Source of the DNA: an uncultured Eubacteriales bacterium
GTDB taxonomy: Bacteria > Bacillota > Clostridia > Lachnospirales > Anaerotignaceae
DNA: 10,098 bases
Reading direction: 5' to 3'
Assembly: GCA_902406135.1 (NCBI GenBank)
Contig: CABPCX010000041.1
Coordinates: forward strand, 1-10,098
The position numbers were made by a program, and so were the translations under genes. Shown here in pieces: positions 1 to 10,098 of the stretch (positions are counted from its first letter, which is position 1; every line of letters starts with the position of its first letter). The notes beneath the pieces are model-generated. The model ran no database searches and was not told the DNA's origin. It saw only the letters and a list, made by a program, of their open reading frames with translations.

Positions 1-1206
1 CTGCTCATTCAGTCGTCGCTGGTCGTTTCGGCCATTTCGACTTTGATACAGGTATACCCCATAGGCGGTAAAAAATGGCCCATACGTCTGGGTGCGGGCC
101 TGCCGGTTATTTTGGGCATAAGTTTTGCTTATCTGCCCAGTATGCAGGCCATTGTGGAAAGCACCGGAAGCATCGGAGCCATTGCGGGTGCCATGGTTGT
201 GGGAGGCATAGTCGCCATTATTGTAGGCCTTATGGTGGATAAGATAAGAAAATTTTTCCCGCCGGTCATAACCGGTACCGTTGTATTTACCATCGGTCTT
301 TCCCTGTATCCCACCGCAGTCAACTATATGGCAGGAGGAACCGCCAATACCTATGAACTGGTGGTGGAGACAAAGGGACTTTCGGAAGCCCTTGTTTACG
401 GCTCCTGGCAGAACTGGCTGGTGGCAGCCATAACGCTGGTGGCGGTAATGGTGCTCAATAATAAGGGCAAAGGCATATGCAAACTGGCGTCCATACTTAT
501 AGGTATGGCCTTCGGATATATAGTGGCCGCTTTCTTTGGAATGGTGGGTTTTTCGGACGTAAGCACCGCATCCATGTTTGCGGTTCCCGAGTTTATGCCC
601 TTCGGAATAGAGTTTGACTTTGCATCCTGTGTGGCCATCGGACTGCTGTTTGCCATCAACTCCATACAGGCCATCGGTGACTTTACTGCCACCACGGTTG
701 GCGGTATGGACCGTGACCCAAGCAATCAGGAGCTTAAGGGCGGTATCGTGGCATACGGACTTACCAATGCGCTGTCGGCATTTTTTGGCGGACTTCCTAC
801 GGCTACATATTCACAGAATGTGGGTATCGTTACTACAAATAAGGTTGTAAACCGCACTGTATTCGGCCTTACAGGAGTATTTCTTCTTTTGGCGGGAGTT
901 TCTCCCAAGTTTGCGGCCATACTGACTACCATACCCCAGTGTGTACTGGGCGGAGCTACAATTACCGTATTTTCCACCATTGCCATGACCGGTATGAAAC
1001 TTATCGCTTCCCAGAAACTGGACGCAAGAAATACTACCATAGTAGGCTTGAGTGCCGCTTTGGGAGTCGGTATTTCCCAGGCATCATCATCGCTGGTGCA
1101 GTTCCCGGAAGAATTTATCATTATCTTTGGAAAATCACCTGTAGTAATCGCCACCGTTATGGCCATACTGCTTAATCTCATACTTCCCAGGGAAGAAAAG
1201 AAATAA
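1..1206 (+). CDS. NCS2-family nucleobase (xanthine/urate-like) permease, 5'-truncated
   Basis: This is an integral membrane nucleobase:cation symporter of the NCS2 (uracil/xanthine permease) family that would import purines, most likely xanthine or a relative. The frame is open from base 1, so the visible 401 residues are the C-terminal part; the family is usually about 430-460 residues, so roughly 40-60 N-terminal residues lie outside the window. The ATG-like ORF starts inside (e.g. an ATA at 43) are not real starts, because AISTLIQVYP upstream already matches the family. Visible signatures are FPPVITGTVVFTIGLSLYP, GDFTATT (227-233) and SQNVGIV (271-277). The SQNxG form points to the xanthine/urate branch rather than the uracil branch (which has SxxExxG). 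About ten hydrophobic segments remain. Oddly, two carboxylates that are essential in E. coli XanQ (E272, D304, by my motif spacing) appear as Gln223 and Tyr252 here. The gene ends with a strong terminator and is not linked to the genes downstream. Confidence 0.9.
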   Translation: MLIQSSLVVSAISTLIQVYPIGGKKWPIRLGAGLPVILGISFAYLPSMQAIVESTGSIGAIAGAMVVGGIVAIIVGLMVDKIRKFFPPVITGTVVFTIGLSLYPTAVNYMAGGTANTYELVVETKGLSEALVYGSWQNWLVAAITLVAVMVLNNKGKGICKLASILIGMAFGYIVAAFFGMVGFSDVSTASMFAVPEFMPFGIEFDFASCVAIGLLFAINSIQAIGDFTATTVGGMDRDPSNQELKGGIVAYGLTNALSAFFGGLPTATYSQNVGIVTTNKVVNRTVFGLTGVFLLLAGVSPKFAAILTTIPQCVLGGATITVFSTIAMTGMKLIASQKLDARNTTIVGLSAALGVGISQASSSLVQFPEEFIIIFGKSPVVIATVMAILLNLILPREEKK

Positions 1207-1220
1207 ATGTTTGAAATGGG

Positions 1221-1246
1221 CGGACTGTCTTTGACAGTCCGTTTTT
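1221..1246 (+). terminator. Intrinsic terminator of the permease gene
   Basis: A perfect 9-bp stem (CGGACTGTC at 1221-1229 with GACAGTCCG at 1233-1241) with a TTT loop is followed directly by five T. It begins 15 bases after the permease stop codon and separates that gene from the marR unit. Confidence 0.93.
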
Positions 1247-1334
1247 GTATGCCGTTGGCAGGTGGGCAAAGACGGAAGGAAATCGGTTTCGGGGATAAAT
1301 TTGGGATATATAGAAATTTATTTTAAAGGCAATC

Positions 1335-1362
1335 TTGACAAAAGAGAGGTAAAGTATATAAT
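1335..1362 (+). promoter_or_regulatory. Sigma-A promoter of marR
   Basis: A perfect TTGACA (1335-1340) and a perfect TATAAT (1357-1362) are separated by 16 bp. The nearest gene downstream is marR. The -10 box overlaps the left edge of a palindrome starting at 1360, so a repressor bound there should block transcription. Confidence 0.88.
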
Positions 1363-1381
1363 AAGTAATAAGTTACTTATT
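1360..1381 (+). promoter_or_regulatory. Probable MarR operator O1 (own promoter)
   Basis: Perfect inverted repeat: AATAAGTAA (1360-1368), 4-base spacer, TTACTTATT (1373-1381). It covers the end of the -10 box and the likely transcription start. The same sequence recurs before the MATE gene with 19 of 22 positions identical, which supports recognition by one protein, most simply the MarR encoded between them. Autoregulation is typical for the MarR family; the binding itself is inferred. Confidence 0.75.
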
Positions 1382-1410
1382 TTTAATCTGGAACATAGGG
1401 AGTGTTTGTT

Positions 1411-1842
1411 ATGATGCCTTTCGGGCTGAAAATAGCCATAATCAACAGAGCCTTTCGCAAAAGACTGGACGAAAAGGCCCAAGCCTTAGGCCTGACGGCG
1501 GTTCAGCTGAGGGTGCTGGGTTCCATAAGCCGTCTGGAGGCGGCAGGCGAGGACGAGATACATCAGAATGACCTGGAGCGTCTTGAGCGTGTTACCCACC
1601 CGGCCATGACAAAGCTTCTGCAGAGACTTGAAAGCAAAGGATTCATACGGTGTGTCCCCAGTGATAAGGACAGGAGATATAAAAAAATCACCTGTACGGA
1701 GCAGTCTGCCGAAATCTATAAGCTTATCCTTGAACAGGATGCGCAGGTGTTTGACGAGATGTGCAGAGGCCTGACCGATGAACAGCGTCAGGAATTTACA
1801 TATCTGGCGGACATTATCCTCAAAAATATTGATTCGGAATAA
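1411..1842 (+). CDS. MarR-family repressor (MepR-like)
   Basis: This is a dimeric winged-helix repressor of 143 residues, a normal length for the MarR family. I chose the ATG at 1411 because AGGGAG (1397-1402) lies 8 bases before it. A GTG at 1402 would add three residues but sits on that ribosome binding site. The DNA-recognition helix is about residues 61-76 (THPAMTKLLQRLESKG) and the wing carries SDKDRRYKKI (84-93), the usual D-x-R-x(2)-K-type wing. Flanking N- and C-terminal helices would form the dimer. The gene sits directly before a MATE efflux pump, and both are preceded by nearly identical palindromes. By analogy with S. aureus MepR/MepA it probably represses itself and the pump and is released by a drug-like ligand. 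The ligand cannot be read from the sequence. Confidence 0.9.
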   Translation: MMPFGLKIAIINRAFRKRLDEKAQALGLTAVQLRVLGSISRLEAAGEDEIHQNDLERLERVTHPAMTKLLQRLESKGFIRCVPSDKDRRYKKITCTEQSAEIYKLILEQDAQVFDEMCRGLTDEQRQEFTYLADIILKNIDSE

Positions 1843-1856
1843 ATCCGTATTTTCCG

Positions 1857-1892
1857 GGCAGTGAACCAAGAGGTAAATCACTGCCTGATTTT
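1857..1892 (+). terminator. Weak hairpin between marR and the MATE gene, possible attenuator
   Basis: An 8-bp stem (GGCAGTGA at 1857-1864 with TCACTGCC at 1878-1885) encloses a 13-base loop and is followed by GA and only four T (1889-1892). It could partly terminate marR transcripts so that the pump is expressed less than its repressor. The poor T-run keeps this uncertain. Confidence 0.4.
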
Positions 1893-1899
1893 CTGGTTT

Positions 1900-1921
1900 A
1901 ATAAGTAACTAGTTACGTATT
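1900..1921 (+). promoter_or_regulatory. Probable MarR operator O2 (before the MATE gene)
   Basis: Inverted repeat AATAAGTAAC (1900-1909), TA, GTTACGTATT (1912-1921), with one mismatched pair. It is 19 of 22 identical to O1 at 1360-1381. It ends just before the AAGGAGG ribosome binding site of the MATE gene. It could block a separate pump promoter (no clear -35/-10 pair was found) or act as a roadblock to read-through from marR. Confidence 0.72.
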
Positions 1922-1940
1922 TTAAGGAGGTCTTATAAAT

Positions 1941-3329
1941 ATGGAAAAAGAAATTCCCGAAAGTCAAAGCCCTTTTGCTTCAGAGCCCATAGGAAGGCTC
2001 ATTGTTAAGTTTGCCGTACCCAGTGTTATAGCGCTTCTTGTAAATTCCCTCTATAACATCGTAGACCAGATATTTATTGGCTGGGGTGTGGGATATCTGG
2101 GCAACGGGGCAACAAATATCGTATTTCCCATAACTATAATAGCACTGGCCCTTTCCATGATGATAGGAAACGGCGGCGCGTCATATCTGAGCCTTAAGCT
2201 TGGCGAAGGAAAAACTTCCCTTGCCCAGAAGGGTGTAGGAAATGCGGTTACACTGGTAACTGTCGTAAGTATCATACTGGCCGTAGTTTTCATCGTATTC
2301 ATAAATCCTATACTTACCCTCTTTGGGGCTACGGACGTACTTCGTCCCTTTGCATTGGATTACGGATATATCATAGGCATAGGTCTGCCCTTTATGATGA
2401 TATCCTCCTCCATAAACTCCATGATACGTGCCGATGGCAGCCCTAAATACGCCATGTTTTCCATGATAATAGGAGCTGTTTTAAATGTTATCCTGGACCC
2501 CGTACTTATTTTTATTTTTGATATGGGAGTTAAGGGTGCGGCCATAGCCACTGTCATTGGCCAGGTGGCGTCCTTTATTGTATCAGTCGTATATATGCCC
2601 CGCTTTAAGACGGTCCACCCTGACTCATCCTCTTTCATACCAAACGCAAAAACCTGCGCCAATATCGTGACATTCGGTCTCAGCAGTTTTATCACCCAGT
2701 TTGCAATCACCATAGTTATGGCGCTTACAAACAATCTCTTGGCTGCCTATGGAGCCGAATCCGTATATGGCGCAGAAATACCCCTTACAGCTACAGGCAT
2801 CGTTATGAAGGTAAACCAGATAATGATAGCCATCCTTCTTGGCATTGCCACAGGAGCACAGCCCATCATCGGTTTCAACTATGGAGCGAAAAACTATAAG
2901 CGTGTTAAACAGGCCTTGGAAATATCCCTTATAGCATCGGAGATAGTATCCATAATCGCCTTTTTGATATTCCAGTTTGCGCCCATGAGCGTTGTATCGC
3001 TTTTTGGCTCCGAAGAAGGGCTTTATAATGAATTTGCAGTAATGGCCTTCCGTATTTTCCTTCTCCTTTGTCCTCTGACAGGATTTCAGACCATTACGGC
3101 AGTATATCTGCAGGCCGTTGGAAAGCCTGTTAAATCAGCCATACTTTCCCTGGCCCGTCAGATAATCTTCTTTGTTCCTGCGGCATTGATACTGCCTAAG
3201 TTTATGGGAGTTACGGGAGTTTTATGGACCGGTCCCGTGGCAGACGGCCTGGCCTTTATTCTTTCTCTTATACTGCTCATATACGAAAGAAATCATTTGA
3301 AAAAGGGACATGAAGCATCGGCAGCTTGA
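1941..3329 (+). CDS. MATE-family multidrug efflux transporter (MepA-like)
   Basis: This 462-residue membrane protein matches the length and layout of MATE drug/cation antiporters (MepA of S. aureus is about 450). It exports cationic drugs or dyes in exchange for Na+ or H+. Two repeated MatE halves are visible, roughly residues 15-180 and 240-410, each with six hydrophobic segments. The first contains the family-typical NSLYNIVDQIFIGWGVG; the second contains MAILLGIATGAQPIIGFNYGA (the Q-P-x-x-G-x-N-Y-G-A motif). It starts at the ATG at 1941, after AAGGAGG (1924-1930). It follows its probable repressor by 98 bases with an operator between, and is followed after 27 bases by a kinase-like gene, probably in the same transcript. 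The substrate is unknown. Confidence 0.93.
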   Translation: MEKEIPESQSPFASEPIGRLIVKFAVPSVIALLVNSLYNIVDQIFIGWGVGYLGNGATNIVFPITIIALALSMMIGNGGASYLSLKLGEGKTSLAQKGVGNAVTLVTVVSIILAVVFIVFINPILTLFGATDVLRPFALDYGYIIGIGLPFMMISSSINSMIRADGSPKYAMFSMIIGAVLNVILDPVLIFIFDMGVKGAAIATVIGQVASFIVSVVYMPRFKTVHPDSSSFIPNAKTCANIVTFGLSSFITQFAITIVMALTNNLLAAYGAESVYGAEIPLTATGIVMKVNQIMIAILLGIATGAQPIIGFNYGAKNYKRVKQALEISLIASEIVSIIAFLIFQFAPMSVVSLFGSEEGLYNEFAVMAFRIFLLLCPLTGFQTITAVYLQAVGKPVKSAILSLARQIIFFVPAALILPKFMGVTGVLWTGPVADGLAFILSLILLIYERNHLKKGHEASAA

Positions 3330-3356
3330 TGATATAAAAATAAGGGAGGCAGACAA

Positions 3357-3935
3357 ATGAAAAACAGGATAATTACTATAAGCCGTGAGTTTGGAAGCGG
3401 AGGACGCACCATAGGAAGAACCGCAGCGGAAGAGCTTGGAATTCCCTGCTATGACAGCGAGCTTCTGCAGAAAATCGCCATTGAAAGCGGTTTTGATGAA
3501 AACTATATAAAAGAAGCCGGCGAATATGCTCCCGGCGGACTTCTTACATCAGCCTTTTCCCATAATCTTTCCGGACCGAACAATGCGGATTATCTTTGGA
3601 ATATACAGTACAAAGTAATTACGGACATAGCCAAACAGGGACCATGCGTCATAGTTGGGCGCTGTGCGGACTATGTACTTCGTGAAAAAGCTGACCTTTT
3701 AAGGGTATTTATCCATGCGGATATGGAATTCCGCGCGGAGCGTATCGTTAAGGTATACGGAGAGAGGGAAGAGTCTCCCATGCAGCGCCTGAAGGATAAG
3801 GACAAACGGCGTGCAGCCTATCACCGTTTCTACACTGATATGAAATGGGGACATGCACAAAACTATGATATTACGCTTAACAGCGGCACCCTTGGTATCG
3901 AAAAATGTGTGGAGATAATCAAAAACCTTTACTAA
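3357..3935 (+). CDS. Cytidylate kinase-like P-loop protein
   Basis: This 192-residue protein belongs to the cytidylate-kinase-like family (Cmk2/AAA_26 type), common as stand-alone genes in Clostridia. The N-terminus has the family form of the P-loop, ITISREFGSGGRTIG (6-20), with Arg in place of the usual Walker Lys, followed by AAEELGIPCYDSELLQKIA. A later block, VIVGRCADYVLRE, then a lid-like region rich in Arg and Lys (QRLKDKDKRRAAYHRFYTD), fits an NMP-kinase fold. True substrates of this family are poorly defined; it should not be read as the housekeeping Cmk. The start follows AAGGGAGG (3342-3349). It sits 27 bases after the MATE gene and is closed by a strong terminator, so it is the last gene of the efflux unit. 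A role in drug resistance is not established. Confidence 0.87.
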   Translation: MKNRIITISREFGSGGRTIGRTAAEELGIPCYDSELLQKIAIESGFDENYIKEAGEYAPGGLLTSAFSHNLSGPNNADYLWNIQYKVITDIAKQGPCVIVGRCADYVLREKADLLRVFIHADMEFRAERIVKVYGEREESPMQRLKDKDKRRAAYHRFYTDMKWGHAQNYDITLNSGTLGIEKCVEIIKNLY

Positions 3936-3983
3936 TCTCGATCACCTACAGATTTTCTCTGCACAGGCCTTCAGGCGTTAAAA

Positions 3984-4011
3984 GGCGATGGCATTTGCCA
4001 TCGCCATTTTT
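3984..4011 (+). terminator. Intrinsic terminator of the marR-MATE-kinase unit
   Basis: A perfect 9-bp GC-rich stem (GGCGATGGC at 3984-3992 with GCCATCGCC at 3997-4005) has a four-base loop and is followed by ATTTTT (4006-4011). It lies 48 bases after the kinase-like stop codon and closes the host-like block. Confidence 0.93.
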
Positions 4012-4082
4012 AAGCAGGTTTAAAAATATTTATGGCAGGATAGAAATTAAGGTATACATTTGTAAATTAAATAATTGAGGTA

Positions 4083-4123
4083 AAAAACAGATATGTTTAA
4101 CAATATTAAGCATATCTGTTTTT
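4083..4123. terminator. AT-rich perfect 13-bp inverted repeat, likely bidirectional terminator
   Basis: AAAAACAGATATG (4083-4095) and CATATCTGTTTTT (4111-4123) are perfect inverse repeats around a 15-base loop. The A-tract on one side and T-tract on the other make it able to terminate transcription from either strand. It ends 12 bases before the next promoter. A second possibility is an operator for the WYL-like regulator encoded downstream. Confidence 0.65.
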
Positions 4124-4135
4124 GTATTATGCACA

Positions 4136-4175
4136 TTGACAATTGTTGACAAAATGATAAGCTTTTGTATATATA
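4136..4175 (+). promoter_or_regulatory. Promoter of the WYL-like regulator gene, with two -35 boxes
   Basis: Two perfect TTGACA boxes lie 10 bases apart, at 4136-4141 and 4146-4151. The downstream one is 16 or 18 bp from overlapping TATATA candidates (4168-4173, 4170-4175). The resulting leader would be about 30 bases before the ATG at 4215. The 10-base repeat (one helical turn) may also serve as a binding site for the regulator. No other promoter of this quality is seen before the next two genes. Confidence 0.75.
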
Positions 4176-4214
4176 GTATTATTTTTTTAGTCTGGAATAT
4201 TATGGAGATAAATT

Positions 4215-5213
4215 ATGAACTTATATGATATTATCAGAAAATTTAAAAGAAACAGCCGATATTACGGTGGTTTAAATGCCGGAATCGTTGAAAATATGGT
4301 ATTCAAAAACGGTATATTTGAGCAAGAATTGGGAGATGAGCTGTATTCTGAGAATCCGGATTTTGAATGTTTTAAATGTGCAGTTAAAGAGTCGGTGAAA
4401 GCTTATAAATCAAATAAGGACAGCATAATCAATATGTATAAAAAACTTATTGATGAAATAAACAAAAGTACAGACTGGAATTTTAATGCCGGATTTTTTC
4501 CTCCGATACCTGTATCCAATACATTTGAAAGACTTATGTTTATATCAAAATATCTGCAGAATCCGGAACATAAATGGAATGATTTAGAAGAAATATTATG
4601 GGTAAGTCCAAGAACTTTGGAAGATGATTTAAAGAAGCTGAGAGGAAATGATGACGACCCTCTGCAGGTGTGTGGCAAAAAATTTGTTATTGATGATATT
4701 GAGAGAAGACATGGAAAAATATCTTTTGCATCTACAGTGCACCCAATATTTCTCACTTTAAATATTACACAGGTTATGTCAATGCTTAAAGGCCTTAAAA
4801 TTATGGCAGAGGATAGGGCCTTTAGGGCTTACGCCTTAAGTACGGCTCGGAACATATGGTCACAACTTTCTGATTATGCAAAAGACAGAATACTTTATGT
4901 ATCAGATGAATTGCTTGGAGAAGAGACTGACTGGTATAAAGAGCTTGAAAACGGCAGCCAGGATTTATTTTTCAGTGAATACAGATGCAGCACAACGGAA
5001 GGTTCTGGAGTACTTTTGGACTGCTTAAAGAACCAGAAAAAATGTTTTATAGAATATGCTGATGGCGAAAATAGCAGGCTTTTAGAGGCAGATAAAGTTT
5101 TAGGTTTTGATAATGTAAAAAAAGAAATAACTGTAATGATTAAAAATGAACAAAAAGTTATTGAGGCAGATAAGGTTATAAGGAGTTCATATTATAAAGA
5201 TATTTTATATTGA
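4215..5213 (+). CDS. Winged-helix regulator with degenerate WYL-like C-terminal domain
   Basis: This 332-residue protein looks like a WYL-type transcriptional regulator. A helix-turn-helix lies at about residues 105-143, with recognition part LEEILWVSPRTLEDDLKKLRG (family pattern: VS-x-RT-x-x-DL-x-x-L). A helical linker follows at about 178-228 (LNITQVMSMLKGLKIMAED). The C-terminus (about 262-325: CFIEYADGENSRLL, VLGFD, KVIEADKVIRS) matches the beta-rich order of a WYL domain, but no Trp-Tyr-Leu tripeptide is present. About 100 N-terminal residues are unassigned. WYL proteins sense nucleic acid or other ligands, and the BrxR/CapW group controls phage-defence loci. Here two genes separate it from the helicases, so a link is only suggestive. 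It starts at ATG 4215 after GGAG (4204-4207). Its promoter region carries a repeat and a palindrome that could be its own operators. Confidence 0.72.
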   Translation: MNLYDIIRKFKRNSRYYGGLNAGIVENMVFKNGIFEQELGDELYSENPDFECFKCAVKESVKAYKSNKDSIINMYKKLIDEINKSTDWNFNAGFFPPIPVSNTFERLMFISKYLQNPEHKWNDLEEILWVSPRTLEDDLKKLRGNDDDPLQVCGKKFVIDDIERRHGKISFASTVHPIFLTLNITQVMSMLKGLKIMAEDRAFRAYALSTARNIWSQLSDYAKDRILYVSDELLGEETDWYKELENGSQDLFFSEYRCSTTEGSGVLLDCLKNQKKCFIEYADGENSRLLEADKVLGFDNVKKEITVMIKNEQKVIEADKVIRSSYYKDILY

Positions 5214-5304
5214 AACCGGGCTTCATTTTTTTTAAGGACAGATTACGTTATTATTAAACCATAAACCAAACAAAAAAATAAAAACTTTGAAAGAGGGGTT
5301 TAAT

Positions 5305-5919
5305 ATGAAAAATACATTTTATCGTCCTGAACTTAAAAGAGGAAAAGCTATAGAAATGCAGGGTATAGTTGATAAACTGAAGTCTGACTTTTATGAAATT
5401 GATAATGCTTCGGAAGATGAGGTTACGGAGTATGTAAAAAGACTTATCGAACAGGGGAAGCCTTTAAAAAATAACAGCAAAATGGTTTTCTGGGGACTTG
5501 ATGAGCCGGAAAATATGCCGTCGGATGCAAGAGTTGATTTTTTCTATATGCCCACATATTATGCCTCGGCAATTATGGCTGCCGGAGTCACAAAATATAA
5601 GTCATTATGGAATATACCGGGATTTAAAGAGTGTCTTGGAAAAGGGTTAAATGCATGCACCGGTCGTAATTTTATGGGCAGCGGATATGGTGACATGAAT
5701 TCTTTTTTGGACACGCTTGAAATTTTTGCCAGAGCCGGAATGAAAATTTTAACAGAAAAATATCCGGATCTTTCTCCGGAATTTACAGAAAAGCTTAATT
5801 GGGCTCTTGGTTTTGTCAAAAACACAATAATAAGCGGAGATGCCGTTGACCCCTGGAGTGGCAGAGATTTCTCAGCCAGAGGAATTGAAGTGGAAATGAT
5901 GTTTGAGGAAGCCGCATGA
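5305..5919 (+). CDS. Conserved-looking hypothetical protein, 204 residues
   Basis: I do not recognise this family. I chose ATG 5305 because AGAGGGG (5292-5298) sits 6 bases before it; an in-frame TTG at 5287 lies upstream of that site and is unlikely. The protein is soluble, with no signal peptide or membrane segment. An acidic, helical N-terminus (about 1-55) precedes a core containing VFWGLDEPENMPSDARVDFF (61-80), YMPTYYASAIMAAGV, a Gly-rich stretch (CTGRNFMGSGYGDMNSF, 118-134) and WALGFVKN. The Gly-rich part is not a Walker motif. It follows the WYL-like gene by 91 bases and overlaps the next gene by 4 bases, so it is translated together with the cyclotransferase-like protein. The two may act together, perhaps in modifying or removing a small molecule or tag; that is speculation. 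Confidence 0.8.
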   Translation: MKNTFYRPELKRGKAIEMQGIVDKLKSDFYEIDNASEDEVTEYVKRLIEQGKPLKNNSKMVFWGLDEPENMPSDARVDFFYMPTYYASAIMAAGVTKYKSLWNIPGFKECLGKGLNACTGRNFMGSGYGDMNSFLDTLEIFARAGMKILTEKYPDLSPEFTEKLNWALGFVKNTIISGDAVDPWSGRDFSARGIEVEMMFEEAA

Positions 5920-6305
5920 AAATACTTTTTGTTTATGGTTCACTTATGAAAAACAGGAGCAACAGTAAGTATATGAAAGATGCCCAATATGTGGGAAGGG
6001 CAGTAATTAAGGATTTTTCAATATATGACCTTGGATTTTTTCCAGGAATAAGGCAGGAAAAGGGAAAACGTGTATTAGGCGAGGTATATAGGGTAAATGA
6101 TGAGGACTTTAAAAAAATATGTGAACTTGAAGGAGAAGGTCTTCTATATAAATTAAAAAAAACAAAAGCGTTTTTAAAAAATAAGCAGGTTTTGAGAGTA
6201 AATACTTTTGTATATAATGGCGAGTGCGAAAGGTACGCACAGGAGCTGGACGGACGGTTTTTATGGAATGAAACAGACTTAACTTTTTTGCAAAATGATA
6301 GATAG
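5916..6305 (+). CDS. Gamma-glutamylcyclotransferase-fold (GGCT/AIG2-like) protein
   Basis: This 129-residue protein fits the small GGCT/AIG2-like family, which cleaves gamma-glutamyl amines or dipeptides to release 5-oxoproline. The N-terminal FVYGSLMKN (5-13) is the family's substrate-loop motif (YGSL). FFPGIRQEKG followed by VLGEVYRVND (41-63) is its second conserved block. The block CELEGEGLLY (69-78) holds the expected catalytic glutamate, E72 or E74; the usual LD-x-x-EG is altered here, so I cannot say which. Its ATG overlaps the stop of the preceding gene in ATGA (5916-5919), indicating translational coupling. Family members also remove gamma-linked groups from unusual substrates, so the true substrate is open. 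Confidence 0.82.
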   Translation: MKILFVYGSLMKNRSNSKYMKDAQYVGRAVIKDFSIYDLGFFPGIRQEKGKRVLGEVYRVNDEDFKKICELEGEGLLYKLKKTKAFLKNKQVLRVNTFVYNGECERYAQELDGRFLWNETDLTFLQNDR

Positions 6306-6376
6306 CGCTTTTTAAATAATACATAAACAAAGACATAATATTTAGCGCAATGGGTGGTTGATTGGAGAGATAGAAT

Positions 6377-8308
6377 ATGGACAAAAAATGTTGGCCGGCT
6401 GCAATTCCGACAGGTAGCAATTACACAGCTATTGAGAGGTCGCTTTTTAATTCTTTTGAAAAAAATATTGAAAATGGCTGGCTAGTATTAGATGCAGATC
6501 CTGTAGGGTTAAAAACCGATAAGGTAAAGATGGGATTTTTTATTAGCAATATAGGATTAATTACATTTTCTATTTATGACAATATCAGCATAGAAGAGAC
6601 TAGAGCTATCGTTAAGATTTATACCGAAATGGTTAAAAAGAAAATAACAGAATTACTTGAGGAATCAGCATTATTAATTGGAAGAGTTGAAGGTAAGAAA
6701 TTTTTGAAGTTCCCGTACTCTCATATTAATATTTTTAATGATGATGTTATTATTCCTGATGAGTTATCTGAATACGCTGCGGGGAATATATTTAATAAAA
6801 AAGAAATAGTAGAAAAAATTTTAAATATAGCTGTCGAAAAATATAAATTTTTAGAGAAACCTGAAATTTCGGATAAGATGGCTGTCTCTATATTGTCAAA
6901 ACTTTCTCCAGAATATACAGTAATAAAACCTGAAATACAAAAAATAGAAAATAATGATAATGAAATACAAAAAGAAATAGATATTGAAAATTTACCTAAT
7001 ATAACAGGAAAAGAAGTAGAATACAGTACATTTTTATTAGATGATGATCAAGTAAAGTATATCAATGAGATGGGAACTGGACACAGAGTATTATTGGCGA
7101 ATGCAGGAGCAGGGAAAAGTGTACTTTTGCTTTCAAGAGCGTACAGATATGCTAGTGCTCACAAGAATGAAAAAGTTCTAATTACTTGTTATAACAATAA
7201 TCTAGCTGATGCATATAAATTTAAAAACGGCTGTTCGAATTTTGGAGAAAATAAAAATGTTTATATTATGACATTTCATAAATTAGTAAAAAAAATATAT
7301 AAAGAATGCTTGAATATAGAGTTAGGAAACAATTATGCTTCAGACCAAGATATACAAAATCTTTTTACTTACATAAATAAAGGTAAAGTTAATTTAAAAT
7401 TTGCGGCGATATTCATTGATGAGGTACAGATTTTTGACCCATTATATTTGGATATTTGCTACTCTATGTTATCAGAAAATAAAGACTCTTTATTTTTATT
7501 AGCAGGTGACTTAAACCAAACAGTTAGAAAACAGAGCAGAAGAGGAGAAGTCCCTTGGAAAAAAATAAACAATGGAAGACTCAATTTTAGTGGCCGAGTC
7601 AAATATATTTCAAAAAATTATAGAAATAGTACACAGATTAGTGTGTATTTAAATAAAATGCTAATTTATATGAACCAGCGTTTATCAGAAGCTGGTTTGA
7701 TAAATGATAAAGAATTTGATTACAACGTATTTGGTAATGGAACTTCAAAAGACATAGCTCTTTTAGTTAATACAGGTATTCCAAAATTAGAAATATGTAA
7801 AAGAGTAATGGATGCTATTGATGAGATAACTCTTAAATACAAAATATCATATTCAGATATAGCTATATTATTTCCGTATTCGAAAAATAAAAAGTTAAAT
7901 TATTATATTTCGTATTGGATAACAACTGAGCTTAAAAAGCGAGGGGTAGAGTATTCTTTTATTTCAGGTACAGGAGATGATGGACCGAGAATACAATACA
8001 GCAGAACAAACGGTATAGTATTATCTACAATAGACTCAGCTTTAGGACTGGATTTTAAGGCTGTTATACTTACAGGACTTTATCCCTATGGATATATTTA
8101 TGGCGATGAAGTAAATGGAAAACCAGTAAAAGTTTCATCATGGAAACAACTATCGAATCTTAATCCAGATGAAAAGGAAACAGTAAAAACTCAGTTAAGA
8201 AAATTATATACTGCTTGTTCAAGAGCAAGAGAAGTTTTATATGTTCTAAGTGATATTGAAAAAGGAAGTCCATTTGAAGATATTTTGGAGGATCGGAGTA
8301 ATGAATAA
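6377..8308 (+). CDS. Superfamily 1 (UvrD-like) helicase, putative defence protein
   Basis: This 643-residue ATP-dependent helicase has a full set of SF1 motifs: Q-motif-like DDDQ (222-225), Walker A ANAGAGKS (241-248, K247), Walker B IDEVQ (D348, E349), motif III GDLNQ (377-381), NYR (414-416), motif V STIDSALGLDF (about 550-560) and motif VI TACSRAR with R616 and R618. It should unwind or translocate on DNA or RNA. Residues 1-180 precede the motor. The stretch AIERSLFNSF...GWLVLDA...FFISNIGLITF (18-64) resembles in pattern a NERD nuclease-like domain, but the Asp and Glu-x-Lys active residues are not apparent. A charged linker with repeated EIQK follows (186-200). The start follows GGAGA (6364-6368). 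Codon use is very AT-rich. It overlaps the next gene by 8 bases, so the two are one translational unit. No clear promoter was seen in 6306-6376. Confidence 0.86.
   Translation: MDKKCWPAAIPTGSNYTAIERSLFNSFEKNIENGWLVLDADPVGLKTDKVKMGFFISNIGLITFSIYDNISIEETRAIVKIYTEMVKKKITELLEESALLIGRVEGKKFLKFPYSHINIFNDDVIIPDELSEYAAGNIFNKKEIVEKILNIAVEKYKFLEKPEISDKMAVSILSKLSPEYTVIKPEIQKIENNDNEIQKEIDIENLPNITGKEVEYSTFLLDDDQVKYINEMGTGHRVLLANAGAGKSVLLLSRAYRYASAHKNEKVLITCYNNNLADAYKFKNGCSNFGENKNVYIMTFHKLVKKIYKECLNIELGNNYASDQDIQNLFTYINKGKVNLKFAAIFIDEVQIFDPLYLDICYSMLSENKDSLFLLAGDLNQTVRKQSRRGEVPWKKINNGRLNFSGRVKYISKNYRNSTQISVYLNKMLIYMNQRLSEAGLINDKEFDYNVFGNGTSKDIALLVNTGIPKLEICKRVMDAIDEITLKYKISYSDIAILFPYSKNKKLNYYISYWITTELKKRGVEYSFISGTGDDGPRIQYSRTNGIVLSTIDSALGLDFKAVILTGLYPYGYIYGDEVNGKPVKVSSWKQLSNLNPDEKETVKTQLRKLYTACSRAREVLYVLSDIEKGSPFEDILEDRSNE
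6931..6973 (+). repeat. In-frame 13-bp direct repeat in the helicase linker
   Basis: TGAAATACAAAAA occurs at 6931-6943 and 6961-6973, exactly 30 bases apart. It encodes two EIQK tetrapeptides in the low-complexity linker between the N-terminal domain and the motor. It probably reflects slippage or duplication in a region with little constraint. Confidence 0.6.
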
Positions 8309-10098
8309 TTATAATGTGTTAGCAGATTTTATTGTACATAAATATATTGATAAAATTTCAGGTAATGATTTAGGTGAGAGAATAATAGGAGAAGAACCTT
8401 TTGAGATAATAATGACAGGACTATTAGCCGAAAATCGTGTAGAACAGACCTTTGATGGAGACTATAGGGAAAATGAGAGTACGAGATTCCAGAGTATTCC
8501 ATCTATAAGCTTAAAATGTTGTGTTAAAAAGAATGATGAAAGTAAAATAAAGATATTTCCAAAAGGATTATTGTTTTATACTGTAAAACCTGAATATGAA
8601 GAAATTGTTGAACATTGCTTAGAACAGGAATCTGAGAGGGACCACAAAAAATATAGTTCAATAGATGAGCTAATTAAAATTTATCCGGACAAAATATTTA
8701 CTATTCCAAAGGTTTACAAGAAAATTAATATTTCAGATGTTTTTAAAGAAGGACTTGAGTTAAATCTAAGAGATTCATTTGGTCAGGTGCATTTTAAAGA
8801 TTTGATTAACCAAAGTTTAAGAAGTTTCATTGCTAGTATTAAAGATGAAATAAAAGTGGTAAACGATAATAGCATATCATATAAGGATTTGGAAAATGAG
8901 GATAAATTCAATTTGGTTTGCAGTGTTAAGGACCAAGTTATTTTGCCTTCTTGGAGTTTTGATATTGTTACTTCACTTAGCGAGTCGCAGGATGGATATG
9001 TTTTATATGTACGAATGGTTAATAGTACAGAAAAGCCTAAAAATAATTATGGATTTTTACCACAAATTTTTAATGCCGGTATTGATATTGTTGGAAATGA
9101 AGCAACTGAATTTTTAGAAATTAAACTAAACTATTTTAAGGATAACTATAAAGAAAGAAAAAAATGTTACTCTGTAGGAGAGAATACGTCGAGTAGCTTT
9201 AATGAGAAAACAAATACCATATCTACAGAAAATATACCCATTTACTATCAGTATAGAACAAAAACAAATGATCGTTTTAATGGATACATAGAGTTCCAGA
9301 AATTAATAGATGACCCAATAGGTAATCTAGAATATATATATCAGCAAATGCAAAAAGATCTAGAAAATAGATATAAAGAGTTCAATGATTATAAAGATAA
9401 TCTTAATTATTTAGCCCGAGATAAGTTTGAAAGGGCATTAACTGATTATGAACAAGAGGTCAAAAGATTTCATTATGGAATTGAACAGATAAAATATAAA
9501 GATTTAGTATATAGAGCTTTTGTATTAATGAATAAAACATTTAAGACTGAAGTAAAAGGCGACCATAGAAGTTATTCAGGATGGAGACTTTTTCAAATTG
9601 TTTTTATAGTTTCACTCATTTGTGAAGTAATAGAGAGTGAATACAAAGATGATCTCTCAATAAAGAATGCAGTAGGAGTCGAAACTGCCAATTTATTATA
9701 TTTCCCCACAGGAGGCGGGAAAACGGAAGCTTTCCTTGGTGTAGCAACTTTTACAATGTTTTTTGATAGACTGCGAGGAAAAAATGTAGGTGTTACTGGT
9801 ATTTTAAAATATCCATTAAGACTTTTGGCAGCTCAGCAGCTTGAACGTGTATTAACCATAGTTATGAAGGCAAACATTGTCAGAGAAAATGAGGAGGATA
9901 TAAAAAATACTACGCCCTTTGCGGTTGGTCTTTTAATTGGAAGCAGTAATACACCAAATAAAGTAGATGAAAATGATATTTATAATAACGGAAGCAAGGC
10001 TATTCTGAATGGGGATGAGCAAAGTTTAAATGAAGGTTATAGGTTTATAGATGTTTGCCCCATTTGTGGTAAAAAATCAGTTAATGTTATGTTTGACA
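8301..10098 (+). CDS. DISARM DrmA-like helicase, N-terminal 599 residues (runs off window)
   Basis: The frame opens at ATG 8301, with TTGGAG (8285-8290) before it and an 8-base overlap with the upstream helicase, and stays open to the window end. Residues 1-340 are a divergent N-terminal region. A helical, probably coiled-coil stretch (about 340-400) ends in KFERALTDYEQEVKRFHYGI (375-394). Next come a block around AF-x-LMN and WRLFQ (428-432), Walker A FPTGGGKTEAF (468-478, K474), and LKYPLRLLAAQQ (502-513) in the motif Ia position. CPICGK with C586 and C589 is the first half of a zinc ribbon inserted after this. This order and wording match DrmA-type superfamily 2 helicases of DISARM and related defence systems. 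The DEAH box, second RecA domain and any DUF1998 partner lie beyond the window. It probably translocates on phage DNA. AT-rich codon use suggests horizontal transfer. DrmA-like is an assignment from memory of the family. Confidence 0.8.
   Translation, partial: MNNYNVLADFIVHKYIDKISGNDLGERIIGEEPFEIIMTGLLAENRVEQTFDGDYRENESTRFQSIPSISLKCCVKKNDESKIKIFPKGLLFYTVKPEYEEIVEHCLEQESERDHKKYSSIDELIKIYPDKIFTIPKVYKKINISDVFKEGLELNLRDSFGQVHFKDLINQSLRSFIASIKDEIKVVNDNSISYKDLENEDKFNLVCSVKDQVILPSWSFDIVTSLSESQDGYVLYVRMVNSTEKPKNNYGFLPQIFNAGIDIVGNEATEFLEIKLNYFKDNYKERKKCYSVGENTSSSFNEKTNTISTENIPIYYQYRTKTNDRFNGYIEFQKLIDDPIGNLEYIYQQMQKDLENRYKEFNDYKDNLNYLARDKFERALTDYEQEVKRFHYGIEQIKYKDLVYRAFVLMNKTFKTEVKGDHRSYSGWRLFQIVFIVSLICEVIESEYKDDLSIKNAVGVETANLLYFPTGGGKTEAFLGVATFTMFFDRLRGKNVGVTGILKYPLRLLAAQQLERVLTIVMKANIVRENEEDIKNTTPFAVGLLIGSSNTPNKVDENDIYNNGSKAILNGDEQSLNEGYRFIDVCPICGKKSVNVMFD

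Follow-up and report, generated by a model that had tools for sequence, protein, structure and literature searches.

Two helicase genes at the end of the window

We analysed a stretch of 10,098 nucleotides from an uncultured Eubacteriales bacterium (contig CABPCX010000041.1 of assembly GCA_902406135.1, positions 1 to 10,098, hereafter the window). It ends with two helicase genes that an earlier note, made from the sequence, had proposed as a possible new relative of DISARM (defence island system associated with restriction-modification). The first is a complete UvrD-like superfamily 1 (SF1) helicase gene encoding 643 amino acids (6377..8308, forward strand), defined by its open reading frame (ORF), Pfam matches and an alignment with 20 relatives. 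The second encodes a DrmA-like superfamily 2 helicase of the YprA family (8301..10098, forward strand), recognised by PADLOC and NCBIfam, of which the 5′ 599 codons are present before the window cuts it. The pair overlaps by 8 bases (8301–8308), as the earlier note had read it, but these are two overlapping genes and not the fusion that its title suggested.

The UvrD-like protein passes the Pfam cut-offs for both AAA_19 and UvrD-helicase, and its helicase core (7040..8308, forward strand) carries a GAGKS Walker A motif (7106–7120), FIDEVQ as motif II (7412–7429) and YTACSRAR as motif VI. The N-terminal domain (approximately residues 1–182, 6377..6922, forward strand) resembles an inactive PD-(D/E)xK or Schlafen-linker fold. 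E20 is conserved in this domain and the E-x-K catalytic pair is not, hence it lacks the residue set of a NERD nuclease; the likeness is one of fold only, and when the two were aligned as sequence profiles, this domain and the genuine NERD domain gave no significant match. Relatives of the protein are mostly 630–670 residues long, with some of up to 854, and C-terminal extensions of approximately 100–200 residues account for the longer forms (753–854 residues) in L007, L011, L013, L017 and L022. A plasmid search with the window's protein returned distant plasmid helicases only.

The probable start of the DrmA-like gene is ATG 8301, with GGAGG at 8287–8291, and the frame is also open from GTG 8250. 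The features described earlier for this large second protein were all located, namely a FPTGGGKTEAF Walker A motif (9702..9734, forward strand), LKYPLRLLAAQQ (9804–9839, forward strand) and, for the CPxCG half-ribbon, CPICG as the first half of a presumed zinc site (10056..10070, forward strand). The PADLOC DrmA profile matched the partial protein at E 2.3e-48 and its full-length relative in locus L010 at E 6.1e-145, identifying a DrmA-type helicase as in DISARM. The NCBIfam DrmAS profile gave E 8.1e-43 and 146.6 bits against a cut-off of 950 for the window's incomplete query, and 333.5 bits for the L010 protein, likewise far below that curated equivalog cut-off. The window's DrmA is 61% identical to that of Catonella morbi (L002), which in turn matches the PDB DrmA structure 7s9v at E 7e-48. 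All 27 full-length DrmA relatives retain GGGKTEAF, DExH and the R-x-G-R of motif VI, and four cysteines (C588, C591, C611 and C616 in L002 numbering) are equally invariant. The plasmid matches listed for the window's partial DrmA and for the L002 DrmA did not exceed 35% identity, and the latter had no match among phage records.

A four-gene core and its relation to DISARM

Because the window ends early, the earlier note's suggestions to survey the gene pair and to look downstream for DUF1998, phospholipase D (PLD) and methyltransferase genes were followed in relatives only. A profile of 21 UvrD-like sequences found 31 loci in a genome collection, scanned with two exact peptide patterns that miss diverged relatives, and one in viral contigs (L032), and one further locus (G357) was added from genome draws, giving 33 altogether. 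L022 nearly duplicates L007, a single assembly supplied both L024 and L025, and L014, L015 and L018 are contigs of metagenome-assembled genomes (MAGs). The core was assembled by clustering called ORFs and scanning representatives with hidden Markov models (HMMs). Loci ending within 90 bases of the first gene were excluded (L023, L025), leaving 31; three of these stop at or shortly after DrmA (L001, L008, L012), leaving 28 for DrmB, and two more stop at DrmB (L015, L018), leaving 26 for the gene after it.

A constant order emerged in these loci: the UvrD-like gene, DrmA (approximately 1130 residues), DrmB (approximately 635) and a second SF1 helicase with a NERD nuclease domain (approximately 530). 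DrmA lies downstream of the UvrD-like gene in 31/31 loci with room for it (L027 by tblastn), DrmB after DrmA in 28/28, and the NERD helicase after DrmB in 26/26 (L027 and L031 by tblastn). As the loci were found by the UvrD-like profile, these counts say that this helicase implies DrmA and not the reverse. The DrmB of L010 matched the PADLOC DrmB profile at E 1e-50 and NCBIfam DrmB_fam at 87 of 240 bits, with no Pfam match; a separate DrmB with DUF1998, as in DISARM, is thus present in the relatives. The nuclease residues of the NERD domain (E18, D55 and E69-x-K71) are invariant in 12 of 12 aligned proteins. In a deep group (L026, L028, L029, L030, L032) a protein of 325–424 residues stands between the first gene and DrmA, and HMM scans of two of the five loci found no match for it. 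Of the genes that the earlier note suggested looking for, DrmB is present in the relatives; no PLD gene lies directly after DrmB, and a methyltransferase, of the Dam type, was found in several lineages but not in the modules of others.

We consider it likely, on the comparison of sequences, that the two genes of the window begin, at its 5′ end, an innate immune operon similar to DISARM, in which a conserved restriction core is joined to a lineage-specific modification module. Class 2 DISARM consists of DrmE, DrmA, DrmB and DrmC with a C5 methyltransferase, and class 1 of DrmD, DrmMI, DrmA, DrmB and DrmC. The comparators, which included class 1-like loci, were labelled from neighbouring annotations. 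The class 2-like plasmid comparators carry DrmA, DUF1998 or an unnamed protein, mostly PLD, a C5 methyltransferase in several and, in most, either DrmE or a similarly sized protein without a name. An unnamed protein holds the DrmE place in L060, L062, L065, L067 and L071, and L064 has none of that size listed. In view of the constancy of DrmA, DrmB and the NERD helicase in the relatives, SF1 helicases occupy the class 2 places of DrmE and of the PLD protein DrmC.

These shared places raise the alternative of an ordinary class 2 system, with the UvrD-like protein as a diverged DrmE and the NERD helicase as a lineage-specific DrmC. The order DrmE, DrmA, DrmB, PLD is indeed that of L059, L061 and L063 (L061 with two small genes after DrmE), and a 32-row DrmA tree nests the window's group (11 rows, 100/100) with five rows of class 2 (96/95). 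Class 2 as a whole is not one clade in this tree, and L071, although labelled class 2, falls with class 1. Nevertheless, we regard this alternative as unlikely. None of six proteins in the DrmE position, three of them annotated as DrmE, matches the Walker A pattern or aligns with the UvrD-like family (hhalign probability 0.4), and DrmE is not favoured as the ancestor of the UvrD-like protein because of this failure to align. In PADLOC, neither the UvrD-like protein of the window (at E ≤ 1) nor the NERD helicase of L010 (at E ≤ 0.01) had a DrmE or DrmC hit. Furthermore, NERD is a PD-(D/E)xK domain and not PLD, and it is this helicase that follows DrmB throughout, with more distant genes scanned in part. 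Where a module is recognised in these loci, it holds Dam or Dnd genes and no C5 methyltransferase.

Class 1 shares DrmA-DrmB with the core, and a SNF2 helicase of DpdE/DrmD type occurs in L002, L014 and downstream of L009. However, this SNF2 gene lies behind the core and not ahead of it. No DrmD-like gene precedes DrmA in the loci scanned for one (L009, L002/L014), and no DrmMI-type gene was found among the proteins scanned. The proposed kinship with DISARM thus holds, through the PADLOC match of DrmA, the downstream DrmB of the relatives and the nested position of DrmA. Among the comparators, neither class accommodates an SF1 partner as first gene, in keeping with the distinct variant suggested before. 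As a distinguishing point this is incomplete; likewise the two motors of different superfamilies are more fully described as a core of four genes, two of them SF1 helicases of different kinds, joined to a modification module that changes.

The order UvrD-type helicase, DrmA, DrmB-like, NERD helicase was also found on four alphaproteobacterial plasmids, from Rhizobium ruizarguesonis (L068), Azospirillum (L069), R. rhizogenes (L070) and Shinella (L079, which has no annotation and whose first gene weakly matches the NERD-helicase profile at 23.7 bits). Three alphaproteobacterial DrmAs are placed with class 1 rows in the DrmA tree (98/96), and the first helicases of the same three loci had no match to the profile of the window's family. 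The NERD helicases of the two groups do not group together either, with the branch from the alphaproteobacteria to L081 at only 84/89. A single origin of the order is not favoured because the DrmAs fall with different classes, class 1 for the alphaproteobacteria and class 2 for the window's group, and because the NERD helicases stay apart (moderate support). The order was probably assembled twice; to us this hints at a useful joint action of two SF1 helicases next to DrmA-DrmB. The Burkholderia plasmid L082, with a NERD helicase that faces a short DUF1998 gene, an IS3 element and a short gene related to helicases, may carry a decayed relative of the core.

Modification modules and the placement of the window

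Modules were assigned by profile scans of L010 (Dam, DGQHR) and L002/L033 (Dnd, Dpd), and through sequence clusters for the remainder. A Dam-type gene lies directly beside the core in 14 of 26 complete loci, and dnd genes further along the same gene run in two. The most frequent arrangement (10/26; L007, L009, L010, L011, L013, L016, L017, L019, L022, L024) has a Dam-type D12 methyltransferase gene within 6 bases of the core or overlapping it, then a DndB/DpdB-like DGQHR protein. The Dam gene instead lies 18–23 bases upstream of the first gene in L003, L004 and L006 (3/26), with a DGQHR relative 1.9 kb after the core in L003. In G357 a Dam-like gene, 43% identical to that of L003, is directly downstream and is followed by PADLOC candidate PDC-M33 genes. 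Such candidate genes stand beside the core together with a Dam gene at L004 6992–9050 and L051 5621–9796. L021 has a Dam gene 3.3 kb upstream, adjoining a type II restriction-enzyme match. A 604-residue ORF that lies some kilobases beyond the core of L020 fuses a Dam methyltransferase with a DpnII restriction endonuclease (L038 4536–6347). Downstream of L009, L044 encodes a sacsin/TmtA-like protein of 1593 residues after the Dam and DGQHR genes (2944–7722) and a HEPN-SNF2 protein matching DrmD at 397 bits (7860–11420).

Seven deep loci (L026–L032, 7/26) carry a GHKL-ATPase relative on one side of the core, and in six of them (all but L026) a radical-SAM-like protein follows the NERD gene; these modules possibly represent DNA modification of a new sort. 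The remaining arrangement (L002 and L014, 2/26) combines Dpd and Dnd genes. In Catonella morbi (L002, L033) the NERD gene is followed by a DpdE-like SNF2 gene, a DpdF-like gene, a weak DpdG, a DpdH-like gene, a 217-residue protein without assignment and the dnd genes in the order DndB, DndC, DndD, DndE and a DndA-like desulfurase. The L033 DndB, C, D and E exceed their NCBIfam cut-offs (386/328, 578/290, 475/246 and 122/72 bits), and the full set that marks Dnd modification (these four with DndA or IscS) was identified in L002/L033 only. L014/L034 has a homologue for each of these module genes in the same order, at 33–67% identity. No DpdA transglycosylase or 7-deazaguanine gene was detected in the 10 of 14 L033 ORFs scanned with NCBIfam and PADLOC, and the DndF, G and H profiles had no match among the ten proteins. 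Among plasmids, the Catonella DpdH-like protein is best matched (24.6%) on one from Paenibacillus (L056), which encodes DpdF, DpdK, two DpdJ proteins and a UvrD-type helicase.

A protein search with the window's UvrD-like sequence scored 7992 candidates, and a tree was built from the window, the loci and 45 sequences from the best 120 of 657 matches. The window's protein falls in a clade of 37 rows (100*) together with both Dnd loci and with no locus carrying another known module; gene context in this clade is known for the Dnd loci alone. Approximately 30 protein clusters from the search belong to the window's clade. In DrmA the window clusters with L002 and L014 (100/100), and no Dam locus of the trees falls within this clade. 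Each of the three groups Dam+DGQHR, GHKL/radical-SAM and Dnd lies on one side of a branch in the trees of UvrD, DrmA and NERD. The DrmB tree did not hold the Dam+DGQHR group together, and it was the only one to unite the Dam-upstream group (counted with L021), at weak support. As both window proteins group with the Dnd loci, a Dpd/Dnd module is the likely continuation after the window's end, and the window's version is probably phosphorothioate-based.

Several points weigh against the overall reading of a restriction core with a lineage-specific module. The window ends inside DrmA, and its DrmB, NERD gene and module are read from relatives alone. The Dnd module was seen in two loci only, one of them a MAG contig, and in them DpdE, F, H and DndA score below their cut-offs (386/500, 452/550, 342/450 and 434/480 bits), with DpdG at 20 of 80 bits. 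The order within the trio differs between two DrmA trees, the window lying outside L002 and L014 in one (95/82) and with L002 in the other (94/90). The radical-SAM match, made for one protein, reached 27.4 bits against a Pfam cut-off of 29.5, and a modifying role for the GHKL/radical-SAM-like genes of the seven deep loci is a guess. No adjacent modification gene was recognised in L005, L020 or L021. Finally, in L012, which the DrmB count omits, DrmB breaks off after its first 27 residues and the last 211 bases of the contig are unmatched (15311–15617 in all), reflecting a gene or an assembly break. The few Dnd loci and the first of the two DrmA topologies leave an appreciable, if minor, chance that the window's operon carries a Dam/DGQHR or other module and that only L002 and L014 have the link to phosphorothioation. 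The DrmA clade shared with these two loci argues otherwise, as do their positions in the two other branches of the window's UvrD clade, the base of which the tree does not resolve.

UvrD acts in DNA repair. YprA/MrfA relatives are likewise described as repair proteins in passages of PMC12458937, and a repair operon of UvrD-like and YprA/MrfA-like helicases with a nuclease would involve no defence. This explanation appears very improbable to us. DrmA is closest to DISARM, and Dam, Dnd, restriction-enzyme and candidate-defence genes lie nearby in relatives. The core is also rare, occurring in 3/392, 2/391 and 5/397 genomes at E ≤ 1e-60 when genomes were drawn from the order, class and family to which Catonella belongs; these draws overlap (G001 and G007 are in each).

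The surroundings of the pair are AT-rich, as the earlier note had remarked. In 500-base windows G+C is 0.42–0.52 over the first 3.9 kb (genes up to 3935), 0.26–0.40 from approximately 4.0 kb on and 0.26–0.34 across 6.5–10 kb. Before 3935 lie a MarR-type regulator, a MATE transporter and a cytidylate-kinase-like protein (Pfam), and a permease named by eye that ends at 3935. The AT-rich stretch opens with a 332-residue protein (4215–5213) without a Pfam, PADLOC or NCBIfam match, which by eye we take to be similar to helix-turn-helix/WYL-type regulators, followed by an ORF without a Pfam or PADLOC match (5305–5919) and a gamma-glutamyl cyclotransferase-like protein (5916–6305, E 1.7e-19). In relatives, relaxase- and MobC-like genes seen by eye near the core (L009 6432–8098, L053 3706–5473 and others; clusters c8, c11) suggest mobilisable islands.

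Predicted mode of action and comparison with known systems

Gene content and order in the relatives, intact motifs and phylogeny are the direct basis from which we infer defence, the marking logic, the division of labour and the window's downstream genes. DrmA-DrmB would load on unmarked or incoming DNA, sense and thread it, with the core translocating and unwinding, and the NERD helicase-nuclease would cut and degrade the DNA. The first SF1 helicase, in the class 2 place of DrmE, may be a second motor or a DNA-sensing subunit or clamp. The lineage-specific module would mark host DNA and thereby spare it, through Dam-type adenine methylation in several lineages and probably through phosphorothioation by DndA–E with DpdE/F/H-like proteins in that of the window. 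Published DISARM work reports that DrmAB prefers 5′-overhang DNA and that its ATPase is limited by methylation (passages of PMC9142583).

The core differs from each known system with which it shares parts. The DpdE-, DpdF- and DpdH-like genes of L002/L033, all below their cut-offs, follow the order of Dpd, which places 7-deazaguanine in DNA, but DpdA is missing among the ten L033 proteins scanned and Dnd genes come next. Dnd itself (DndA–E with DndFGH or other partners) shares DndB–E and the desulfurase, but here DrmA/B, the NERD helicase and DpdE/F/H-like genes stand in front, and DndF, G and H had no match among the same ten L033 proteins. As described in passages of PMC12458937, ARMADA, BRIGADE and TALON share a YprA-family helicase, ARMADA II a UvrD-family helicase, TALON a NERD nuclease and BRIGADE Dpd-like genes. 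According to the same passages, the DISARM branch is the one in which helicase and DUF1998 part are consistently separated, and here they are separate genes. The gene order also differs from ARMADA, defined by ArmA-B-C-D, a RelE-UvrD protein and a Vsr-fused YprA helicase, where the UvrD-type helicase is RelE-fused and comes last and each of the four genes, the UvrD-family helicase included, is needed (PMC12458937). Neither Vsr nor RelE appeared in Pfam scans of the window and L010 proteins, no wider search having been made. BRIGADE is reported there from halophilic archaea only.

The closest parallel for an exchanged mark is Type-4 BREX (bacteriophage exclusion), a defence system in which phosphorothioation genes replace the methylation part (passages of PMC12839542). 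Its core, however, is PglZ, BrxC and BrxL without DrmA-DrmB, and the word DISARM is absent from that paper. PMC10853773 mentions NERD nucleases near dnd genes and contains neither DISARM nor Dpd, and PMC11090510 promises a later report on a DISARM-like association with McrBC. In the literature searched, DISARM combined with NERD and DUF1998, or with UvrD and DUF1998, occurred only in PMC12458937, of which the main text contains no DpdE, DpdF, DpdH or phosphorothio- term and names Dnd once, as mobile-element cargo. Supplements excepted, that literature yielded no description of this core.

A wider proposal, on which we incline slightly towards doubt, is a modular immune system in which one four-gene core takes N6-adenine methylation, phosphorothioation or radical-SAM marks, two SF1 helicases came to flank DrmA-DrmB separately in the class 1 and the class 2 lineage, and the window represents a phosphorothioate-licensed DISARM. 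DISARM, Dpd and Dnd count as distinct systems, each with its own mark. If the proposal is true, a restriction machinery retained under different marks would suggest that DrmA-DrmB is not tied to one chemistry. Self/non-self discrimination by DISARM would become testable by module swapping, and the lesson of Type-4 BREX for BREX would extend to DISARM. The operon also offers a bacterial setting for an SF1 helicase that is Schlafen-like and whose nuclease fold is inactive.

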